Part shown: positions 4,707-18,764 of the stretch, in pieces | Layout: every line of letters begins with the position of its first letter | Position numbering within the stretch: position 1 is the stretch's first letter | Source: Patescibacteria group bacterium | GTDB lineage: Bacteria; Patescibacteriota; Gracilibacteria; Absconditabacterales; Absconditicoccaceae | NCBI GenBank assembly: GCA_017992195.1 | Contig: JAGOPC010000005.1 | Coordinates: 1-45,266 of the forward strand | DNA: 45,266 nt | Direction of reading: 5' to 3' | Notes under the pieces: generated by a model | What the model was told of the DNA's origin: nothing | What the model saw: only the letters and a program-made list of their open reading frames with translations | The model's database searches: none | Program-made: the position numbers and the translations under genes

Positions 4707-5843
4707 ATGAAGAAATTACTCGTCAGCGCTATTGCCATTTCGGCTATCGTTCTCGCAGGATGCGGAACACAAACAGCAAACAATACGTCGAATGGGCCCG
4801 TAACAGTGAAAGTTGGAGTGATCGCTCCTTTATCGTGACCTGCCGCTGCGTATGGTGAGGATATTGTGAATGTTGTTAAAAAATATGTTGATGCATTTAA
4901 TAGTTCACAAAATGAATATAAGATAGATGCGATTATGGAAGACGGAAAGTGTAGTGGGAAAGATGCCACCTCTGCCATACAGAAGCTCATCAATGTCGAC
5001 AATGTAAGTATGATCTACGGAGGCGCATGCTCTTCTGAGACTCTTGCAGCAGGTAAGATCGCACAAGCAGCGAAAGTATTTATGTTGTCTGCTGTGTCGT
5101 CTGCTCCACAAGTTTCAGAGATCGGAGATTACGTATATAGATATTACAGCGATACTATCGCGGCGAAGGAGGTTGCGAGCTTCATCAACAATAAGTCACA
5201 AAAGATTGCTATTGTGTCGGAGACAACAGACTTTGCGCAAGGATTTGCTAATGCATTCAAAGAAAACTTCAAGTGAGCTATAGGATATGAAACAACCTTT
5301 AGCACCGAAGAAAAAGACTTTAACATCATTGCTAAAAACTTAGCAACAAAGGCAAACGATATTGATTTTATCATGATCTCAAATCAATCAAACACCACTA
5401 TGATTAGCATTGCAAAGGCTATGATCAGCAATGGAGTTTGGGATACGTTTAAAAATAGAATCTTCTTTACTGTAGGAGCTGATGCAGCTGATGTAAAAGA
5501 AGCGCTCGGCAACAAGAGAGAAGGACTTTATAGTTACAATGCGGCTGATCTCACAGCACTTGGGAACAATTTACAGGTTATAAATGAGTTTGAAAAGGAG
5601 CATCCTATCAAATCCGACAAGAACTATGTTGTCATCGAGATTGAAGGCATACAGGCAATTATCGACGGCATCAAAGCAGGAAATACAACATCTGATAGTT
5701 TGAAAGCATATTTTGACGGCTTCAAAACAAAGAACAGAAATGGAATCTTTGGACCTTACTACTTTAACGAAAAGCGTGACGCAGAAGGTATTCACTATAT
5801 CATGACGCAAATACAAAGTGGATCTGTAGCTACTATCGAATAA
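4707..5843 (+). CDS. Liv-type ABC transporter substrate-binding lipoprotein
   Basis: 378 residues ending in TAA. The N-terminus is a lipoprotein signal peptide with lipobox LAGC (Cys 19), so the mature protein is anchored to the outer face of the membrane. The mature part opens VTVKVGVIAPLSGPAAAYGE, the hallmark of type 1 periplasmic-binding proteins of the branched-chain amino acid (LivJ) family; the Gly of LSGP is the UGA at 4836. Later segments (SNQSNTTMISIAKAM, and GIFGPYYFNEKRDAEG near the end) also fit the family. It would deliver a substrate, commonly an amino acid, amide or urea-like compound, to the permeases encoded directly downstream. The true ligand cannot be read from sequence. 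Confidence 0.88.
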
Positions 5844-5847
5844 GGCG

Positions 5848-6666
5848 ATGATAACATACATCTTATTTAATACGCTTATTTACTGAAGCATCGCCTTCAT
5901 ACTCAGCGCATGTTTTGCCTATGCAAAATACCTCAACGTAACGCTAGGAGGTTTTATGATCTTGAGCACTTATACGCTATCAGTCCTCATAAAGGACTGA
6001 TGGTCATGGACATACATAAGCGTATTTATCTGAATCATTGTCATCTATCGAGCGACGAACTACGTTGTCGTTCATTACTTTCACAACGAAAGACAAAGGG
6101 ATCTTTTTGGTCTGATCTTCACACTGGGCGGATCAATTTTCCTGGAAAACATCACAAACCTCATCTATGGCGCTTCTCCTGTAAGCTTTCAGCGATCACA
6201 CATAACCTGATGGCAGATCGCCATAATTCTTATAGTACTCAATATCATGATTATCTATGTATTTAAAATGACATATATGGGGAAAATACGAAGGTGAATA
6301 TACGCGAATACAGGCTCGGTACGCGCACTAGGAGTCCGCACAAATCGTATGATACAAAACTTACTAATGATCATGCTACCTGGTTTAGTTGCTCTCGGAG
6401 CCATCATCGCCAACGAGTGAGCTATGAAAGCAAGCGACAACCTCTTCTACATTATTAAAGGAGTAGGAATCGTAATCATGGTAGGTTTAGAAAAAAGAGA
6501 GTATATATTCCTTGGCACTCTCCTCTATGTGATACTCGAATACGTTCTTTTCATCTGACTCTGACGGCCTATCGAATTCAAAGAGACGTGCATACTTATC
6601 CTCATATTAGTGATACTATTGGTTAAGCCGCAGTGACTTTTTAGCATAAAAGCAAGAAACATTTAA
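5848..6666 (+). CDS. Liv-type ABC transporter permease (LivH-like)
   Basis: 272 residues ending in TAA, starting four bases after the binding-protein stop. It has about eight hydrophobic helices and several UGA-encoded glycines inside membrane segments. The central ANTGSVRALGVRTNRM stretch is the cytoplasmic coupling loop typical of LivH (normally similar to RA...LGI....), which contacts the ATPase. No part of this gene is visible as a long frame in the standard code. Gene order and topology support pairing with the next gene to form the membrane channel. Confidence 0.82.
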
Positions 6667-8368: not shown

Positions 8369-8716
8369 ATGAGTATGAAAAATGTATATGTTATATTAAC
8401 AATCCTCGCCATATTTTTGATCGGCGGATGGGCAGCAATGCGGTTTTTATATGATCAGCCTGGAGGTGTAGCCGATATACCTCTTGCGATAGGCATCCTC
8501 TTTATGCTACCGGTTATCTTCCGAAAATGGAGGAACTTGCTGGTCTTTATCAGCCTTGCTCTGTTATCCACGGGAGCATTCAGTCTGATCACGCCAGAGA
8601 TAGAAGATTTTTTCTTTCTATTCATGCTGTTAAGTATTGGGTGTATTGTGCTTGCGATGCAATGCAAGAGGACCACATTTATTCTCCCCATGCCGAAGTC
8701 GGCGGAGTCGGATTAA
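8369..8716 (+). CDS. Small multi-pass membrane protein
   Basis: 115 residues ending in TAA with four predicted hydrophobic segments (about 6-26, 36-51, 56-74 and 79-97) and a short polar tail. No motif identifies a family. The likely start is the first ATG (MSMKNVYV) or the ATG two codons later. It has its own promoter and terminator and so is probably a single-gene unit separate from the importer operon. There are no UGA codons, which is not informative at this length. Confidence 0.65.
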   Translation: MSMKNVYVILTILAIFLIGGWAAMRFLYDQPGGVADIPLAIGILFMLPVIFRKWRNLLVFISLALLSTGAFSLITPEIEDFFFLFMLLSIGCIVLAMQCKRTTFILPMPKSAESD

Positions 8717-9700: not shown

Positions 9701-10594
9701 CTATTCGTCTAACTTCTTTTTTGTAAAATAGATCGTCATAGAATCAGCTTTGTCTTTGTCTTTTGCCATTTCAGCAATCTTTTGTTTCACTTCTTTTTTC
9801 CTTTTTAAGAACTCTGTATGAGATACAATGCCGGGGACTAAAGCAGGAGGGTTGTCCATCAATAGCTCTTTTATCCTTTCAGAAGAACGTGAGTGCAGCA
9901 TATTATTTTTGCACCAGATATCCACGAACCAGATATCGTTCTTTTCTATATGGACACGTAAGATCTCAAGATCTCTTACAGGCATAACTAAAGGATGGCG
10001 ATAGTTGAGCTCCCACGCATAGCCCCCTGCTTGATAGTCATGATTATCTGAATGAACTATAGGAGACAAAAAACAATAATATTTATTTACCGTTCCTCCC
10101 ATATACATTGCCGATTCCCACCTCGGAGGGGTAATCCACATAAAATCATACTCTGTGTCGAGGTGTAGGTTATAGGGATAAATGACCATATGAGTGTACT
10201 TTTTATACGCATTTTCATCCCGCGAACGTAAGTAAGGCAACACCGGCAAATAGACACCAGTCATCTGACTTTCTAAAAAGCGTATCACTGCGTTTCTCTG
10301 TTTGGAGTGCGTTTTAAAAAACGACTTATACGCTCTCTTAGCAGTAGCACTATATATCTTATGTGCAGCTTTCTCTTCACGCATAGCGACGGTAGACGCT
10401 TTCGCATTATCAAATGGAGAGTCCAGCAGCAATGTGCTTTTCTCCGCCATAGATTTTCTTATGGCCGCAATCAGCGCTTCAATATTCGCATCTCCCAGTC
10501 TATGGATATTATCATAGGTGATACCGTGAAGTGTTATTTCACATTCCTTTAAGATGATGTGAAGTGGGATGAGTAATTTTATTTGTTTTTTCAT
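9701..10594 (-). CDS. Hypothetical protein, probably acquired
   Basis: 297 residues ending in TAG, without a UGA codon. No signal peptide; the N-terminus (MKKQIKLLIPLHIILKECEI) is weakly hydrophobic. The middle is rich in Tyr and Trp (for example YPYNLHLDTEYDFMWITPPR) and the tail is very Lys-rich. I recognise no motif. It is the last gene of a four-gene minus-strand set (11869 to 9701) whose members all lack UGA-Gly and have A-rich, Shine-Dalgarno-free leaders. Confidence 0.65.
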   Translation of the reverse strand: MKKQIKLLIPLHIILKECEITLHGITYDNIHRLGDANIEALIAAIRKSMAEKSTLLLDSPFDNAKASTVAMREEKAAHKIYSATAKRAYKSFFKTHSKQRNAVIRFLESQMTGVYLPVLPYLRSRDENAYKKYTHMVIYPYNLHLDTEYDFMWITPPRWESAMYMGGTVNKYYCFLSPIVHSDNHDYQAGGYAWELNYRHPLVMPVRDLEILRVHIEKNDIWFVDIWCKNNMLHSRSSERIKELLMDNPPALVPGIVSHTEFLKRKKEVKQKIAEMAKDKDKADSMTIYFTKKKLDE

Positions 10595-10629: not shown

Positions 10630-11013
10630 CTAAAAGCCACCAAATGGACATTTTTGACTTCTGATGCTTTTTCCTGTCTTTGGCTCATAGACCTCAAGGA
10701 TCTCTGTGCTGGATGTAGCGCTTACCGGCGTAGTCCACCTTTTAAAGCGAATTGCATATGCGGTACCGATTTGCACTGTATCCGTTCTGGAAAAGTATAC
10801 GCCATCTACCTTTTTTCCTCCCTGGCCCACAGCCTCTATTTCCATACTTGTGCAATGAGTCCCATCAGGAAGTGTCCAGCTACTGTCTTTTTTATGATGT
10901 TCTTGAACAGCGCTGGTAGTTGATACTGAATTTTCAGCATCAGTTGATTTGTTCGTATCGCATGAGCTCAAGCAATATATGAGGAGCAAGGCGATGATTA
11001 GTACGTTTTTCAT
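10630..11013 (-). CDS. Small lipoprotein, Bacteroidota-like, probably acquired
   Basis: 127 residues ending in TAG. The signal peptide ends in LSSC (Cys 18), a type II lipobox, followed by DTNKSTDAEN. A Ser/Thr-rich linker comes next, then a small domain with two further Cys (HCTS and QKCPF) that may pair. A signal sequence of this style and the leader ACTAAAAAAATG without Shine-Dalgarno are common in Bacteroidota. No function can be assigned. Confidence 0.65.
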   Translation of the reverse strand: MKNVLIIALLLIYCLSSCDTNKSTDAENSVSTTSAVQEHHKKDSSWTLPDGTHCTSMEIEAVGQGGKKVDGVYFSRTDTVQIGTAYAIRFKRWTTPVSATSSTEILEVYEPKTGKSIRSQKCPFGGF

Positions 11014-11029: not shown

Positions 11030-11404
11030 TTAGTGATTTAATATTTTCTTTCTTATTCGCTGCTTTCGTAATGGAAGTATGTAGTATTTTCTAGGACGCT
11101 TTGTTGTCCCCGCATAGTTAAAGACAATTTTATCAAATTTCATGATGCGGGCCTTTGCGATAATACTATGTATCGGCTCACGCCACATAGTCCACCTACC
11201 CTCCTCATGTTCGTTTGTCAGGAAGGTCGTTGCATGTTTTTTTGTAGCCCAAACATAAAGTATCCTGTCTGAATTTTCTCTAGTAGTTCTTACTTCCTTA
11301 TGGTCAGCCGTACCCATCAAAATAGCAGTACGTATGATACCAAGATCCATCTTTTCAAGGATGTTCAATGGTCCGTATTTCTTTTTTCTACGTTTCTGTT
11401 CCAT
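11030..11404 (-). CDS. Hypothetical basic protein, probably acquired
   Basis: 124 residues ending in TAA, without UGA codons. It is strongly basic at both ends (MEQKRRKKKYG and the final RKQRIRKKILNH) and has no signal peptide or membrane segment, so it is likely cytoplasmic. It is 16 bases upstream of the lipoprotein gene and 24 bases downstream of the gene at 11429. It shares the MEQ start of its upstream neighbour. Family not recognised. Confidence 0.6.
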   Translation of the reverse strand: MEQKRRKKKYGPLNILEKMDLGIIRTAILMGTADHKEVRTTRENSDRILYVWATKKHATTFLTNEHEEGRWTMWREPIHSIIAKARIMKFDKIVFNYAGTTKRPRKYYILPLRKQRIRKKILNH

Positions 11405-11428: not shown

Positions 11429-11869
11429 TTATAAGAGCACATGTTTTGTTTCATCAAAGACAAAGAAGTATTCAGTGAGCTTACATTGGATGCCTTTCAA
11501 TGATTCATCTTTCTGCATTTTTTCTAGCAACTCTCGGGCATCATTAGTCGTCCAAGGCTCTGCCGCTCCTTCTTCATGTGCCTCTTTTTCCATTTGCCGT
11601 AAAGTCACTGGCTTTGCATTTAGGAAATAAGTTTTTGATTGGTTTACCTCCTTAGATTCTAGTTGTATGTTATCCGAAGTAAGATAAAACAATTTCTCCA
11701 TTGTGTAGAAAGCATGCACGGGAATATCAGAACCGGGACGTCCTGCTTTTGGTACTTGTAGTTTAAGTTCCTGAGGATCGGCAGTAGTTGTTTCAATAAT
11801 AACATTTTTATAGGTTCCCATTTTCAAGAACACACAAAAGATTTTTCTGATAATTGTATTCTGTTCCAT
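11429..11869 (-). CDS. Hypothetical protein, probably acquired
   Basis: 146 residues ending in TAA, without UGA codons. The alternative ATG 16 codons in (MGTYKNVIIETTTADP) may be the true start, because the first residues look unlike the rest. Beyond that the protein is a soluble alpha/beta-looking sequence with no recognisable motif. It is the first gene of the four-gene minus-strand set and lies after the terminator of the outer-membrane-like gene. Confidence 0.6.
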   Translation of the reverse strand: MEQNTIIRKIFCVFLKMGTYKNVIIETTTADPQELKLQVPKAGRPGSDIPVHAFYTMEKLFYLTSDNIQLESKEVNQSKTYFLNAKPVTLRQMEKEAHEEGAAEPWTTNDARELLEKMQKDESLKGIQCKLTEYFFVFDETKHVLL

Positions 11870-11954: not shown

Positions 11955-12845
11955 TTACAACGAAACAAAGAGATAAGCCTTGATGGCCTTTGCCTCGTAG
12001 GAGTAACCCATGCCGATGATGGATTTGATATAGCCTGCTTGCACCAGTTTGATGAGGCCCGCTTCGAAGCGGATGACATCTTTTTTGGGAAGAGAGTAAC
12101 CAAAGTCCGTGTAAAGCATGAGTTGTTGTTTGCGGTGGAGCATAAAGCTACTGATGTTGGCGATGAGATCATCGCTTTTCCAGATACTTGTAGAAGTCCA
12201 CCTGCCTTTCGCATAGCCTAAGCCCAGACCGGTCGTGCGGGTACACTCCTGGTGAAAGGCTGAGAGCTGGAAGCTGCCAATGTTTGCGGCGAGTTGATAC
12301 TCGGGCATGCCTTGGCGGATGCCGACACCGGCGCCGATCATAGTCGTTCCCGAAGGCAGATATTTGATCTGTGCGCGGGGCGCTACGCCGGGGAATTGAG
12401 CCTTGGTAAAAGGTTCGAACTGGCCCCAGTGGGTAACCGGATGTGGACGATGAAGGCCTGCAGTAAGTGTCGGGCCGATGCCAATTTCGGTAAGCCATTT
12501 CTTATGAGGCTGATATTGCAACCAGAAGGCCTGAAACGAAAGGGACGTTTTCCCTACCACCTCATACTCTGCTGCAACGAGCGACCTCAGTGCAAATTTT
12601 GGACTTACCTTCCAGACAACTGACGCGCCAACTCTTACTGATGCGAACTTGTCGAATTGCTTGGATTCATTTGAATCGTGCAGATAACGGCTTGTAGCTA
12701 ACGCCCCGGCATAGACCTTGTCAACGACAAAGGAGCTATCGGGAGTGGCGGCAACATTGAGCATCTGCGCATTCGTCTTGGCTGTGAATAATAGCATGGT
12801 AATAACGCCTACCATAGCGACGATACATGTGTGTAGATTTTTCAT
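11955..12845 (-). CDS. Exported beta-rich protein resembling a Bacteroidota outer-membrane protein, probably acquired
   Basis: 296 residues ending in TAA, without UGA codons. A signal peptide (MKNLHTCIVAMVGVITMLLF ending at TNAQ, about residue 27) has the NAQ cleavage context common in Bacteroidota. The mature part alternates polar and aromatic/hydrophobic residues (FQLSAFHQECTRTTGLGLGY, then FMLHRKQQLMLYTDFGYSL) and ends in an amphipathic strand (AYLFVSL), as outer-membrane barrels do. Candidate phyla radiation bacteria are not thought to have an outer membrane, so its role here is unclear. Codon use is visibly more GC-rich than in its neighbours. It has its own promoter and terminator. Confidence 0.7.
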   Translation of the reverse strand: MKNLHTCIVAMVGVITMLLFTAKTNAQMLNVAATPDSSFVVDKVYAGALATSRYLHDSNESKQFDKFASVRVGASVVWKVSPKFALRSLVAAEYEVVGKTSLSFQAFWLQYQPHKKWLTEIGIGPTLTAGLHRPHPVTHWGQFEPFTKAQFPGVAPRAQIKYLPSGTTMIGAGVGIRQGMPEYQLAANIGSFQLSAFHQECTRTTGLGLGYAKGRWTSTSIWKSDDLIANISSFMLHRKQQLMLYTDFGYSLPKKDVIRFEAGLIKLVQAGYIKSIIGMGYSYEAKAIKAYLFVSL

Positions 12846-13049: not shown

Positions 13050-13790
13050 ATGGAATCATTGTTACTTACGCTCCAACAGTACGGTCTTTCGGAGAAAGAA
13101 GCGAAGGTCTATCTCACTACCCTACAACTTGGCTCTGCACCAGGTAGTTCTATCGCAAGAAACAGCCAGGAAAACCGCGCAACGGTCTATACGATCCTCA
13201 AGGAGCTGCAGAAAAAAGGCATCGTCAACGAGGTCAGAAAAGGCAATATGACTTATTTTTCGGTGGTTGCACCTGAACTCCTCCTCAGAGAACTTGAAGA
13301 CAAATATAACACTTTTAAGGAGAAGATCCCCGAGTTCCTGGCTATGGCTGAGAAATTTGGCAATAAGCCGAAGATACAATTTTTTGAAGGGATAGAGGGC
13401 GTGAAGAAGATGTATGAGGATCTTTTAAGCTCACAGACAGAGATATTATCGTTTCTTGGTATCGAGCAAAGTAACAAAGATCTCCTCTACTATCTCAACA
13501 GAGAGTTTCTCGTGAAGCGCATAAAAAATGATATCCACGCAAAAGTGATTCTTTCTGATACTCCGGCAAATCAAAGATACGCAGGCATTGATGAGAAAGC
13601 AAAAAAACAATCTATCCTTATCAAGAAGTCAGGCTTTATGATAGAGGGAGAGATCAACATCTACGGACCAAATAAGATAAGCATCGCTTTGATGAATGAT
13701 AATGAGATGTCAGGGTTAATCATTTCTAGCGAGCAGCTGTATACAACATGTAAAAATATTTTTGATTTAGTGCGGATGCAAAACAAATAG
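13050..13790 (+). CDS. TrmB-family transcriptional regulator (copy 2)
   Basis: 246 residues ending in TAG, the only copy without UGA. The winged helix-turn-helix (about residues 8-75) reads QQYGLSEKEAKVYLTTLQLG, SSIARNSQENRATVYTILKE and a wing TYFSVVAPELLL. The linker FFEGIEGVKKMYEDLL and the C-terminal alpha/beta domain (HAKVILSDTPANQ, KSGFMIEGEINIYGPNKISI) match copies 1 and 3. It lies two bases upstream of the methyltransferase fusion at 13793, so the pair is almost certainly one transcript. A self-regulated pair responding to a small molecule is likely but inferred from the family only. Confidence 0.88.
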   Translation: MESLLLTLQQYGLSEKEAKVYLTTLQLGSAPGSSIARNSQENRATVYTILKELQKKGIVNEVRKGNMTYFSVVAPELLLRELEDKYNTFKEKIPEFLAMAEKFGNKPKIQFFEGIEGVKKMYEDLLSSQTEILSFLGIEQSNKDLLYYLNREFLVKRIKNDIHAKVILSDTPANQRYAGIDEKAKKQSILIKKSGFMIEGEINIYGPNKISIALMNDNEMSGLIISSEQLYTTCKNIFDLVRMQNK

Positions 13791-13792
13791 AT

Positions 13793-16168
13793 ATGAGCAA
13801 CAAAATGCTATCAACAGCATGAGTCAACGACAATAGAGAGTCAACCAAAGTTGATAAGATTTGAACATATCTTGACCAGCTCTTTGATCCGAACCAGGAA
13901 CCGACTGGTATGTTTTTGTATGATCGGGGAAATCCGCTAACACAGGACAATGGCGCGTATGAGTTCTCTCAGGTATTACGTTCACAAAAATATAGCGAAC
14001 TCAGCAGCACTGAAGCGACACTTTATAAAAACAATAAAGAGCTTATTACCTACTACTTCGACGGGAAGCATGTCAGAAACGTTATTGATATGGGTTGCGG
14101 CGATGGACAAAAGAGCTCGGCGATCCTCACTGATGTGCTCGGAGAAAGACTCAAAGGAAAAACATATATTCCCGCCGACATCAGCCCTTACTTTGTTGAT
14201 CACGCATCTGCGCAGATGAAATCTCTGATGCAGGAGAAACAGCGGCCTATCAAAGTGACATGAACAAAGATCGACTTTCTTTCAGACGACACGCTCAAAG
14301 ACATCAAGAACAAAATGTATTTCTTCTTAGGAGGATCTATTGGAAACTTCTCTGACGCACAGATCATCCAGCTATTAAAAAACATGTCATCCGACACGGC
14401 GTTCGGCAGGAAAAATAATATCGTACTGAGTTATTTCACCGCACCAGATCCGGCACACGAGACCTATCACGACGATATCAAAAAAATGCTCGCTGCATAC
14501 GGAGATCCGGATAAAACAAATCCATACCATGATGCAAACACCACTGGACATACTAAAAAACGAGTACTTGATGGCTTTCAATCGCTGGGCATACCACTCG
14601 ACTCAATAGAATTTACTGTACAATATGACGATCAGCACAATAGGGTTTTAAGCGGAGCAAAAGTAAAAAAATCATTTACCATACAACATGCAGGCAAAAA
14701 CTACACGAAACAAGAAGGTGAATATCTTCGGGCTATTCAGTCGAGAAGATTTACGACGGATAAAATGAGAACTCTTGCAGAGGCAGCAGGTACACATATG
14801 CGAAATCCCAGTGAAGAAGATGGTATGGCTATGGCGATTCTAGAGGCCTCAAGATCTCCTGAAGCAAAAGAGAAGATTCGTCTTATGAAGAAAGCAGCGC
14901 TAGTGGTTGCAAGTTCAGCGATTCTTCTAACGGGGGCACTGACAGCAGGTATGGAGCTGCAAAAGAAAAAACAAAAAGAAAAAGAGAAAAAGGAGTTTGT
15001 GAAAGAGATGGCACCTTGGATGAATCAATTTGGAGAAATGCGTGGAATGTATACTCTTTGAAAGAGTTGAGAGTCAGACGTGGAGATGATGTGGAACAGC
15101 TATGAGTATCAGAGAAATCGCATGAAAATGATCTATGGCATAGATGACGATAAGGCGGAAGCGATGAGACGCAGCTTTTTGAGCCGGCTCATAAAAGCGC
15201 AAGCTCATGGGAAATATTCAGTACCTGGTCGTTTTGGCGGCGGAGAGAGCTTCATCCATAAACTCAACGACTTCGTTGCAGAAAGAGGCGATGATTATGG
15301 TCTAAGCACTAAAGATTACTTTTGATATCTCGATCTTGATGATGAAGCTATGCAAAACACACTGAATAGTAATAAAGAAGAGCCCAAGACGAAAGAGTTA
15401 CATGTTATCAAAGAGCAGATTATAAATAATGACTTCTATATGGATGTTTTTGACAATGAGTACTCGACTCTTGGAAAGGTTGGGACTGCACTGATCAATG
15501 GAAAGAGATATATTGTAGCCTCACATATCCTGAATAACCAGCACGACACATTATCAGTAGAAACAGGCAAGCAATTTCTTGATATCTACTATATGAATAC
15601 TCCAGGGCTATTTGCATTTTCTCAGCAGATAGCAGAAAGGTTAAAGATCAATGCGGGAAATATGTGGGTCGCTTATGGAAGAAGCGGAAACAAGTATCAG
15701 GAAAGTGCACAGGTGCAGATCCAAACAAAGATCGCCTCTCTTTTAGCTCAAGGCTATAAGTTTGATTTCTATCAGCTCAATGCCACTGACAATGAGTATG
15801 AGCTCGCTTTTTTTGCCCAGACGTTTCTTGAGCTGCCTGATAGCGCCTATAAAGACGCAGAGATCAGCAATCGGGAGTATTTCAAGGAACATAATGTTGC
15901 TCCGCTCCTCGATACTTCTATAAGACTCATCAAAGAACGCCATATCAATAAACACCCTCTCACCATAAAGCAGGAAAACCAACTCAAAAGCATGATCTTC
16001 CATAAAATCTATCTAAACGGAACATACAGGGGTCTCACTGCTGAAAACGTCCTTGAAGAACTACATGATGAAATAGATAAAGAACTTAATCCTCCACCAC
16101 TCCCCTGAACGCGCAATCCAGGAGAAACCGCAAGAAATGTGGCGTGATGATATCATGGGATGAGATAA
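13793..16168 (+). CDS. EgtD-like SAM methyltransferase fused to a membrane helix and C-terminal domain
   Basis: 791 residues ending in TAA with several UGA-Gly. Residues about 40-360 resemble histidine-specific methyltransferases (EgtD/DUF2260): VIDMGCGDGQKSSAIL (about 97-112; EgtD has ELGSG..EKTR.LL), YIPADISPYFVDHA, FLGGSIGNFSDAQ (about 178-190; EgtD FLGSTIGNL) and RRFTTDKMRTLAEAAG. These family enzymes transfer methyl groups to the alpha-amino group of histidine. The fold is supported; the substrate is not. A single membrane helix follows (about 369-388, KAALVVASSAILLTGALTAG), then a Lys/Glu helix, an alpha domain near YGIDDDKAEAMRR and a long C-terminal region (about 520-790) of unknown type. 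The architecture after the enzyme domain parallels the protein at 2838. Confidence 0.75.
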
Positions 16169-16233: not shown

Positions 16234-16259
16234 AAAAAAAAGAGCTCTGTAAACAGAGC
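16234..16259 (-). terminator. Terminator of the 16279-16638 gene
   Basis: On the minus strand GCTCTG, loop TTTA, CAGAGC, then TC and eight T. It begins about 20 bases after the UGA stop of the gene. Confidence 0.75.
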
Positions 16260-16278
16260 CCCAAAGAGGTAGATCCGA

Positions 16279-16638
16279 TCAGGACGTCGGAGATGGAAGA
16301 GTCGAAGGTGGGACAGAGCGACTCGTCCATTTGATGTAGAGAATCACTCCACCCAGTATGCATATGAGTCCAGCCACCAGCAGACACCACCACTGGCTTT
16401 GCGTCACAGGACTGTGCCAGCCGATCATATTAGCGATCTGATAATCGTAGTAAGCGTCGCCATCATAGGATTGACGAGCCTCGCGGATATCATACTTATC
16501 CGGAGAGCCGTCAAGCAAATAGACCATCAGCGCCCATACCATGATCACCAAGGTCATGAACATTTGTCCAATGGTTTTGCCGATGGCCTTCAGCTTAGCG
16601 ATGAATACTGGCCTGTTAATTGTAATTAGCTTTTTCAT
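16279..16638 (-). CDS. Small two-helix membrane protein ending in UGA, probably a standard-code acquisition
   Basis: 119 residues ending in TGA, unlike the other genes of the window whose stops I checked. A basic N-terminus leads into a membrane helix (about residues 24-42, IGQMFMTLVIMVWALMVYLL), then a polar Tyr/Asp-rich loop, a second helix (about 84-102, WWCLLVAGLICILGGVILYI) and a Ser/Pro/Thr-rich tail. A terminator starts 20 bases after the TGA, so termination at UGA fits the gene's design. If UGA is glycine here, translation would run through the hairpin. The leader (ACTAAAAACACAACGATATG) is A-rich and lacks Shine-Dalgarno, like the 10-13 kb genes. Function unknown. Confidence 0.65.
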   Translation of the reverse strand: MKKLITINRPVFIAKLKAIGKTIGQMFMTLVIMVWALMVYLLDGSPDKYDIREARQSYDGDAYYDYQIANMIGWHSPVTQSQWWCLLVAGLICILGGVILYIKWTSRSVPPSTLPSPTS

Positions 16639-16679
16639 ATCGTTGTGTTTTTAGTTGTGTATATTTTGTTAGCATCGAG

Positions 16680-16707
16680 ATCATAACGCAGTTATCTTAT
16701 AAGTCAA
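16680..16707 (-). promoter_or_regulatory. Promoter of the 16279-16638 gene
   Basis: On the minus strand TTGACT (16707-16702), 16-base spacer, TATGAT (16685-16680). Confidence 0.65.
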
Positions 16708-16830: not shown

Positions 16831-17571
16831 ATGAACAACCTTATTCATTCTCTTCAACAGTACGGCCTTTCTGACAAGGAGGCAAAGGTCTATCTCGCAT
16901 CACTTGAACTTGGCGCTGCGCCGGCAAGTAGTATTGCCAGACGCTGTACTGAAAATAGATGAACCGTCTACTCTATCCTCAAAGAGCTGCAGAAGCAGTG
17001 AATCGTACAGGAGCTCAAAAGAAATGAGGTCAGTTATTTTTCGGTAATCTCTCCGGAGGTATTGCTGAAGAATATTGAAGAGAAACACGAAACGATGAAA
17101 AAGAACCTCCCAGAGTTCATGGCACTTGCAAGTAAGTTTGGAAACAAGCCCAAGATCACTTACTACGAAGGAGTCGCAGGAATTAAGAGCCAGTACGCCG
17201 ATCTGTTGGAGTATGATGCTCCTCTGTTCTCATTTTTGAGCGACGACGACATTGCACCTGAGTTACAGAAGTTTCTCAATACGGAGTTTGTAAAGAAAAG
17301 ACAGGCAAGATGAATTCATGCGTCGGTCATCGTTAGTAATCATGAAGTTAATAAAGAGTATTTAAATGCGGTAAAGAAAGATAAGTCTACAAAGGTAAAA
17401 ATGATGAAGAGTAATTTTGAGGGAATGAAGGGTGAAATTATACTGTATGGCGAAAACAAGATCGCCTTTGTGCTCTACTCGCCGACAGAACTTTCGGGCT
17501 ACACGATTGAAAGTGACCAGATGTACTCGTCGCTGAAGAGCATCTTTATGGGATTATGGAGCGTGTTGTAA
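16831..17571 (+). CDS. TrmB-family transcriptional regulator (copy 3)
   Basis: 246 residues ending in TAA with three UGA-Gly (in ENRGTVYSIL, KQGIVQEL and QARGIHAS). The N-terminal winged helix is very close to copy 2: QQYGLSDKEAKVYLASLELG, SSIARRCTENRGTVYSILKE, SYFSVISPEVLL. The segment KFGNKPKITYYEGVAGIKSQ and the C-terminal domain (ASVIVSNHEVNKEY, GEIILYGENKIAFVLY) follow copy 2 as well. In the standard code the helix-turn-helix would be lost. Its stop overlaps the start of the next gene (TAATG), so the methyltransferase at 17571 is translationally coupled to it. Confidence 0.87.
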
Positions 17572-18764
17572 TGAGCGAAATAAAGAAGAACAGAAATAAG
17601 ATAAGCACAGAAGCTGATCAGACAGCGTCATTTTCCAGCGCGACAACAGCCGCTTCAGAGGCGATCTCATTGATTCTTCAGGATACAAGTAAAGAAATTG
17701 CATCGCTCAAAGAAGGGAAGATCCCAACCGAGGTCATTTATGCGTGAGAAGCAGGGAAGAAACTTTGAGCTATAGATCACCAGGGGACACACCCCTACAC
17801 CCTGCTTGTGAATAATGGTTTCCTCGACATGTTCATCAGCGCATGACCCGACTTCCAATACAGCGCTAAAAAATTACGAGAGTGTCTCTGACGTATGGAC
17901 ACACGGATAGATATTGGAACAGGAAATGGCATTGTTTCAAATATGGTTGCGTTTCCTATCGTTTCACAGAGAGCGTCCGCAAGACTAGATCGCGAGATCA
18001 AAGCACTCAGAAACAAGGAACTAGACGATCTTCCCGATGAGTCTCATAAGCCTCATTTCATCGCATGCGATCTCAGTAAAGCATCGCTGTCGTTAGCAGA
18101 AGATCTCGCGAAAGATCACTTCCACGATCTAGAAAAACTTTTCACCCTCGAGTACTATCAGGGCACTTTTCAGAAACTCCTTGCAGAGAACAACGACGAA
18201 AAACCAAGACTCATCACCATGTTCAATGTGTTGGCCAACTTTGAATACGACGACCTAAAGAAGATCCTCCAGGATGTAGCCGATGCGATGAAGCCATGAG
18301 ATATATTCATACCGAGCTTTTTCGCTATGCATGATATGTGAAAATCTATGGCATTTGGCATGCCTTTCTATCATCTGACTAGACTGCTGTATGAAAACAA
18401 TGAAACTGAAGATCGGTGCGTTTCTGCATTCTGCGACAGATATAAAGTAGACCCACAGAATGTGAGATATAATGTAGACCGGGAAAATGATGGAAGAGAT
18501 TTTATTGATGTAACGCTTTCTATGCCAAAAAAAATAACATTACACGTACCAGGGAACAATAAAAAAGAAATCAATCTTCCGGCAAACGAGTGCAGGAATA
18601 CTACTCATAGCTCTACCCCATGCACTACATTCAGCGTTTTCAAATCATACAGAATGTCTCAAAAATCGATCAAAGAACTTTGTGAATCCGTCTGATTTAA
18701 GATCGATTATGAGCTCTATGACCGCGAAAGCATCCACTTCGCGCCAGTCTTATATAAGCCATAA
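17571..18764 (+). CDS. EgtD-like SAM methyltransferase, stand-alone
   Basis: 397 residues ending in TAA with several UGA-Gly. The SAM-binding core is TRIDIGTGNGIVSNMV (about residues 111-126) and FIACDLSKASLSLAEDL, followed by the motif-III-like MFNVLANFEYDDLKKILQDV. The C-terminal FSVFKSYRMSQKSIKELCES with VGFKI is the EgtD-type end (substrate-pocket helix followed by a Gly-Phe turn) and finishes ESIHFAPVLYKP. Unlike the enzyme at 13793 it has no membrane helix. It is more divergent from EgtD than that copy, so the substrate may differ. Start ATG 17571 overlaps the TrmB-3 stop; the in-frame ATG at 17556 is inside that gene. Confidence 0.7.

Follow-up and report, generated by a model that had tools for sequence, protein, structure and literature searches.

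The UGA-ended gene and its surroundings

Within the window, the 45,266-nucleotide stretch of DNA analysed here as a whole, a small gene on the minus strand ends in TGA and lies between two genes that contain in-frame TGA codons (Table 1). The first-pass annotation had reported a 119-residue gene with this stop, and we confirmed its start codon, its 119 sense codons and its strand. The frame contains no internal TGA, 8 glycine codons and 5 tryptophan codons, at a GC content of 0.49. A hairpin-T terminator follows the TGA, as had also been reported, although the distance is 16 nt rather than the 20 bases given there; the 86-nt stretch that holds it has an MFE of −19.7 kcal/mol (z −2.65). The locus thus consists of a single gene enclosed by its own promoter and its own terminator, as in a moron-type cargo gene. 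Past the TGA, the frame reads glycine (for UGA) followed by SDLPLWGS, exactly the readthrough peptide predicted earlier, and remains open over 89 further codons, reaching into the convergent neighbour before it meets a stop whose last base is 16009. The next in-frame TAA or TAG lies past the hairpin, at +270 nt, and the RNA end is predicted near +49, so that the transcript would contain no readable stop before its 3′ end.

The encoded protein is modeled by single-sequence AlphaFold2 with helices at 9–43 and 80–105 (mean pLDDT 67). We found no homologue of it in 40 relatives, where the sole second match (on a contig C14, at 32% identity, weak and interrupted by a TAA) was judged to be due to chance, nor by peptide patterns in genome and viral contigs, nor by tblastn in phages and plasmids. 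Among 398 genomes of a Bacteroidota order there was one weak match, inside a 505-aa frame, and Pfam, PHROGs, NCBIfam and the PDB gave no convincing family. This lack of homologues, together with the weak score that the native codon model gives to the ORF (4.3 for 120 codons), is what might be expected if the ORF were spurious or a decaying remnant and its TGA meaningless. We regard that as improbable, because the promoter, the leader, the 119-codon frame, the two helices and the terminator lie in register on one strand, in the same layout as dozens of others.

No phage family match was found around the gene, and its flanks are TrmB-type regulator and methyltransferase genes with in-frame TGA codons, which places it outside a phage or prophage. 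These flanking genes belong to a tandem arrangement of a TrmB-type regulator and a Methyltransf_33-type gene, at 13050-16168 and again at 16831-18764, with a foreign unit lying divergently upstream of each TrmB copy. The two units have similar upstream DNA, a likeness that reflects merely the paralogous TrmB genes. The AlphaFold model of the 296-aa sister protein was too poor for use.

Table 1. Features of the window around the UGA-ended gene and its sister units
Feature	Position	Strand	Remarks
UGA-ended ORF	16279..16638	−	119 codons; small protein, 2 predicted membrane helices; ATG at 16638
TGA codon	16281-16279	−	taken as ancestral stop (standard code); Gly codon in this genome
Rho-independent terminator	16241..16262	−	hairpin of 9 pairs, 4-nt loop, then T8; starts 16 nt after TGA
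Leader	16639..16679	−	A/C-rich, no Shine-Dalgarno, ..ACACAACTAAAAACACAACGAT; A run at −10 to −14 (16648-16652)
Sigma-70 promoter match	16680..16707	−	TTGACT-N16-TATGAT; consensus match, 10/12
Flanking native gene	13793..16168	+	Methyltransf_33 domain; 9 in-frame TGA
Flanking native gene	16831..17571	+	TrmB-type regulator; 3 in-frame TGA
Sister unit	11955..12845	−	296 codons, TGA-free; signal peptide of Bacteroidota-like type (..KTNAQ); ends in TAA, with the hairpin 19 nt on
Sister-unit promoter	12912-12885	−	TTGACA-N16-TACAAT
TGA-free ORF	11429..11869	−	146 codons; same minus-strand cluster as 11955..12845; stop TAA
TGA-free ORF	11030..11404	−	124 codons; minus-strand cluster with 11429..11869; stop TAA
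TGA-free ORF	10630..11013	−	127 codons; lipoprotein-like N terminus; stop TAG
TGA-free ORF	9701..10594	−	297 codons; stop TAG; terminator hairpin 9681-9660
Further unit of the class	8369..8716	+	115 codons; stop TAA; leader TTCCGGACACACAAAAATAA

Reading of UGA in this genome

We analysed all 47 contigs of the assembly, an incomplete MAG of 59% completeness in which 4 contigs are masked with N, using home-made gene calls. Across the 783 genes called under code 25, TGA makes up 14.6% of glycine codons and only about a fifth (~20%) of native genes lack it; those in the window contain many in-frame TGA codons. A 74-nt tRNA(UCA) at C32:5151-5224 has its best similarity score to tRNA-Gly(UCC). ARAGORN labels it ‘SeC’, but its length and similarity identify it as tRNA-Gly(UCA), and a selenoprotein reading was rejected. 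RF1 is present with its PAT motif kept, and its gene, prfA, contains two TGA codons, one of which aligns with a conserved glycine. RF2 (prfB) was not found in the assembly: no match exceeded the cut-off, and the sole sub-threshold match was the RF1 locus. Likewise, prfB is undetected in all available BD1-5 genomes (PMC6851277). Because no RF2 was found and a glycine-like tRNA(UCA) is present, UGA is expected to be read as glycine nearly always.

These observations bear on two proposals of the first-pass annotation. Its suggestion of a standard-code import, though not that the import was recent, is supported, and more strongly than this locus alone could show, because the gene belongs to a class of such units across the assembly, at least nine of which end in UGA. 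Its description of the stop as leaky understates the case, since UGA should be glycine almost without exception. The other proposal, an unusual UGA stop context, is unneeded and found no support. That nine UGA-ended units persist might be taken to mean that UGA does terminate here, through its context, through misreading by RF1 or through an unknown factor. We find this hardly credible, given that RF2 was not found, that no context is shared after the UGAs of the class and that thousands of other UGAs in the genome are read through.

Stand-alone units in the standard code

As the 119-aa protein had no homologue in the sets searched, the history of its gene is argued here from its class. Sorting by codon usage gave ~60 TGA-free, Trp-rich ORFs (Trp 2.3% in the seed set versus 0.6% in native genes), and aligning their ends revealed a common layout: a TTGACW-N16-TATAAT promoter, an A-rich leader without a Shine-Dalgarno sequence, a TGA-free Trp-rich ORF, a stop and, ~20–30 nt further on, a terminator. 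A promoter-based scan of the whole assembly for this layout, with a home-made unit finder in which promoters are consensus matches, returned 43 units, ending in TAA (32), TGA (9) or TAG (2); a wider layout search gave 53 standard-code units, 9 with a TGA stop, with a few doubtful ones included. Four more UGA-ended ORFs (C8:1002, C18:34375, C19:17950 and C27:6181) have the terminator and no strong promoter match. Two of the UGA-ended units resemble enzymes: one is an acyltransferase over its Pfam cut-off, the other a MaoC-like protein below it.

As a comparison, we counted ORFs that span 40 codons or more, lie outside the called genes and stop 0–50 nt short of a strong terminator, without an in-frame TAA or TAG ahead of the hairpin. 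In the whole assembly, 10 such ORFs end in TGA, which exceeds chance: seven pseudo-stop codons gave 0, 2, 2, 0, 1, 3 and 0. Judged by translation, a few of the 10 are evidently spurious, C3:24698 and C18:33780 being shadows of real ORFs in other frames.

The units sit singly among TGA-using genes on many contigs, and an all-against-all comparison found no common flank. Integron gene cassettes, which are promoterless genes followed by a shared attC site, were rejected as an explanation, for the units carry promoters and have no common flank. Short repeated DNA (up to ~100 bp), perhaps a small dispersed repeat, is common to the flanks of some of them (C14:8452, C20:26910 and C26:3220 downstream, C30:10434 upstream). 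In an assembly of this kind, a MAG in 47 contigs with 59% completeness and with an N gap flanked by a repeat on contig C33, one might suspect that standard-code contigs of another organism had been chimerically joined or had otherwise contaminated the bin. We consider this most unlikely, as single units between TGA-using genes on many contigs would require dozens of independent joins, and the relative G021 has similar units, 6 of 7 of those with A/C-rich leaders being TGA-free.

The absence of TGA from units called as ‘code-11’ is true by definition and is not evidence alone; we therefore used the ratio by leader type, from a search that accepts either code. A/C-rich leaders precede 28 standard-code units versus a single code-25 unit (28/29), and other leaders precede 25 versus 11 (25/36). 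In G021 (385 kb sampled, GC 0.30), the corresponding ratios are 6 to 1 for A/C-rich leaders and 4 to 4 for others; the code-25 units of that genome write half or more of their glycine codons as TGA, and native G021 genes are heavy TGA users. None of the TGA-free stand-alone units found in G021 ends in TGA.

Among 44 units, leader position −12 is A in 93%, positions −13 and −11 are A in ~75% and position −1 is T in 70%, whereas native genes have neither the A peak nor the T. This logo is restricted to units whose leaders contain at least 55% A+C, a selection that cannot by itself create the −12 peak. F. johnsoniae shows A enrichment from −14 to −11, with A-12 and A-13 stimulating translation (PMC6847099). 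At the level of sequence, then, the unit leaders match the Bacteroidetes initiation motif and not the native leaders. Native genes of this genome also lack a Shine-Dalgarno sequence, and the promoter spacer of the units, 16 nt, is that of native promoters. Genes of a standard-code Nomurabacteria MAG (G059) likewise have leaders without a Shine-Dalgarno sequence and with T at −1. Three contigs of that bin (C16, C6 and C13) differ from its other contigs in having AQN-type signal peptides, leaders that end in runs of A and an RpoD that looks Bacteroidota-like, and are possibly contaminating.

Origin of the units and fate of UGA-ended transcripts

The units are best read as horizontally acquired standard-code genes that are not yet recoded. 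The class, its TGA-free coding and its leaders are read directly from the DNA; the donor we infer. Several units encode signal peptides ending in AQ, which are common in Bacteroidota. A PyrE unit of the same class, which adjoins a UGA-ended unit on contig C26, has a homologue in standard-code Bacteroidota, with 54% identity to the best of 198 Bacteroidota genomes versus 41% to the best of 287 Patescibacteria and no homologue in its own family. In a tree, it falls within the Bacteroidota side on a long branch (1.37). The pyrE genes of the matching Bacteroidota lack such a promoter, the Bacteroidota promoter type being TAnnTTTG. A simple direct transfer from Bacteroidota therefore fails to explain the uniform promoters of the units, which are TTGACW-N16-TATAAT with a native-like 16-nt spacer. 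Searching a collection of genome contigs for the promoter-leader pattern returned mostly Clostridia with Shine-Dalgarno sequences and no donor.

The units might instead have arrived on phages or plasmids with both Bacteroidota and Gracilibacteria as hosts, as moron-like cargo readable in both codes, the UGA-ended members tolerating a C-terminal extension. Phage morons are autonomous single genes with their own promoter and terminator, and the units resemble them as single foreign genes with promoter, leader and terminator set between resident genes. Phages predicted for Gracilibacteria offer a second likeness, in that most lack in-frame TGA in a host with UGA as glycine, TGA stands at some gene ends, and five of nine with other hosts match Bacteroidetes spacers (PMC10746230). 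We hold this origin to be possible but rather unlikely. Unlike morons, the units are chromosomal in a Patescibacteria genome, with no phage context shown and a code unused by the host, and the proteins tested matched nothing in collections of phages, plasmids and viruses apart from one viral match, L078, a local similarity within a phage gene that is due to chance. The phages of that study are reported to have backup stops after TGA and its integrated prophages to use code 25 (PMC10746230), whereas the units are chromosomal single genes and six of the nine UGA-ended ones have no backup stop before the predicted RNA end.

It is also conceivable, though very improbable, that the units stay in the standard code so as to be expressed, after DNA transfer in the fashion of T-DNA, in a host cell that uses this code, such as that of a Bacteroidota host or prey. 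The Bacteroidetes-type leaders, Bacteroidota-like signal peptides, absent TGA codons and intact UGA stops would then be the signature of this arrangement, and run-off into the terminator, with UGA as glycine, would silence the units in their carrier.

For the gene at 16279, the absence of in-frame TGA and the presence of TGA where a stop would serve contrast with native usage in the way expected of a horizontally acquired standard-code gene in a code-25 genome. We think it probable that it is such a gene, one of dozens of stand-alone units, still in the standard code and with the donor's stop as its TGA, and that its translation would read through into the terminator, run off and need rescue by SmpB and tmRNA. 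The course of expression that we infer is as follows. If the gene is transcribed here, UGA would be decoded as glycine and the ribosome would enter the terminator hairpin, reaching the mRNA 3′ end without a stop and stalling there with the extended protein. Rescue through SmpB and tmRNA would follow, and the product would probably be degraded, leaving a UGA-ended gene effectively silent or poorly expressed until a UGA → UAA mutation. Trans-translation is likely because an SmpB homologue is encoded, on contig C41; no tmRNA was found in the assembly, which is an incomplete genome.

Genes of the arfA type have no stop before the terminator, so that the mRNA ends first and the product is tmRNA-dependent. 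The UGA-ended units share with them the lack of a readable stop before the mRNA end; arfA, however, is a regulated native gene, whereas the missing stop of the units follows from a mismatch of codes. A second parallel is recoded E. coli, in which UAG-ending proteins are degraded through tmRNA (PMC6207430). There, as here, the host cannot terminate at an imported stop and tmRNA-based rescue is expected. The units differ in being natural and in that UGA is a sense codon here, so that the ribosome would extend the protein and run off the mRNA rather than stall at a codon without an assignment.

Alternative codes are thought to be a barrier to gene transfer, and here a natural genome contains dozens of standard-code-looking genes, several of them ended by a codon at which the cell should not stop. 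The units make it possible to test directly what recoded organisms do with imported genes, offer an internal clock by which code conversion can be timed and may give a clue to the host of this uncultured lineage of symbionts.

Six of the nine promoter-bearing UGA-ended units contain no in-frame UAA or UAG before the predicted RNA 3′ end, and their translation should therefore run off the mRNA; the other three have a backup stop. One of the six, C33:5344, is marginal, its stop lying only ~3 nt beyond the predicted RNA end. On the same contig, the N gap at C33:6080-6260 is flanked by the repeated end of this UGA-ended gene (5344-6033), likely an assembly fault.
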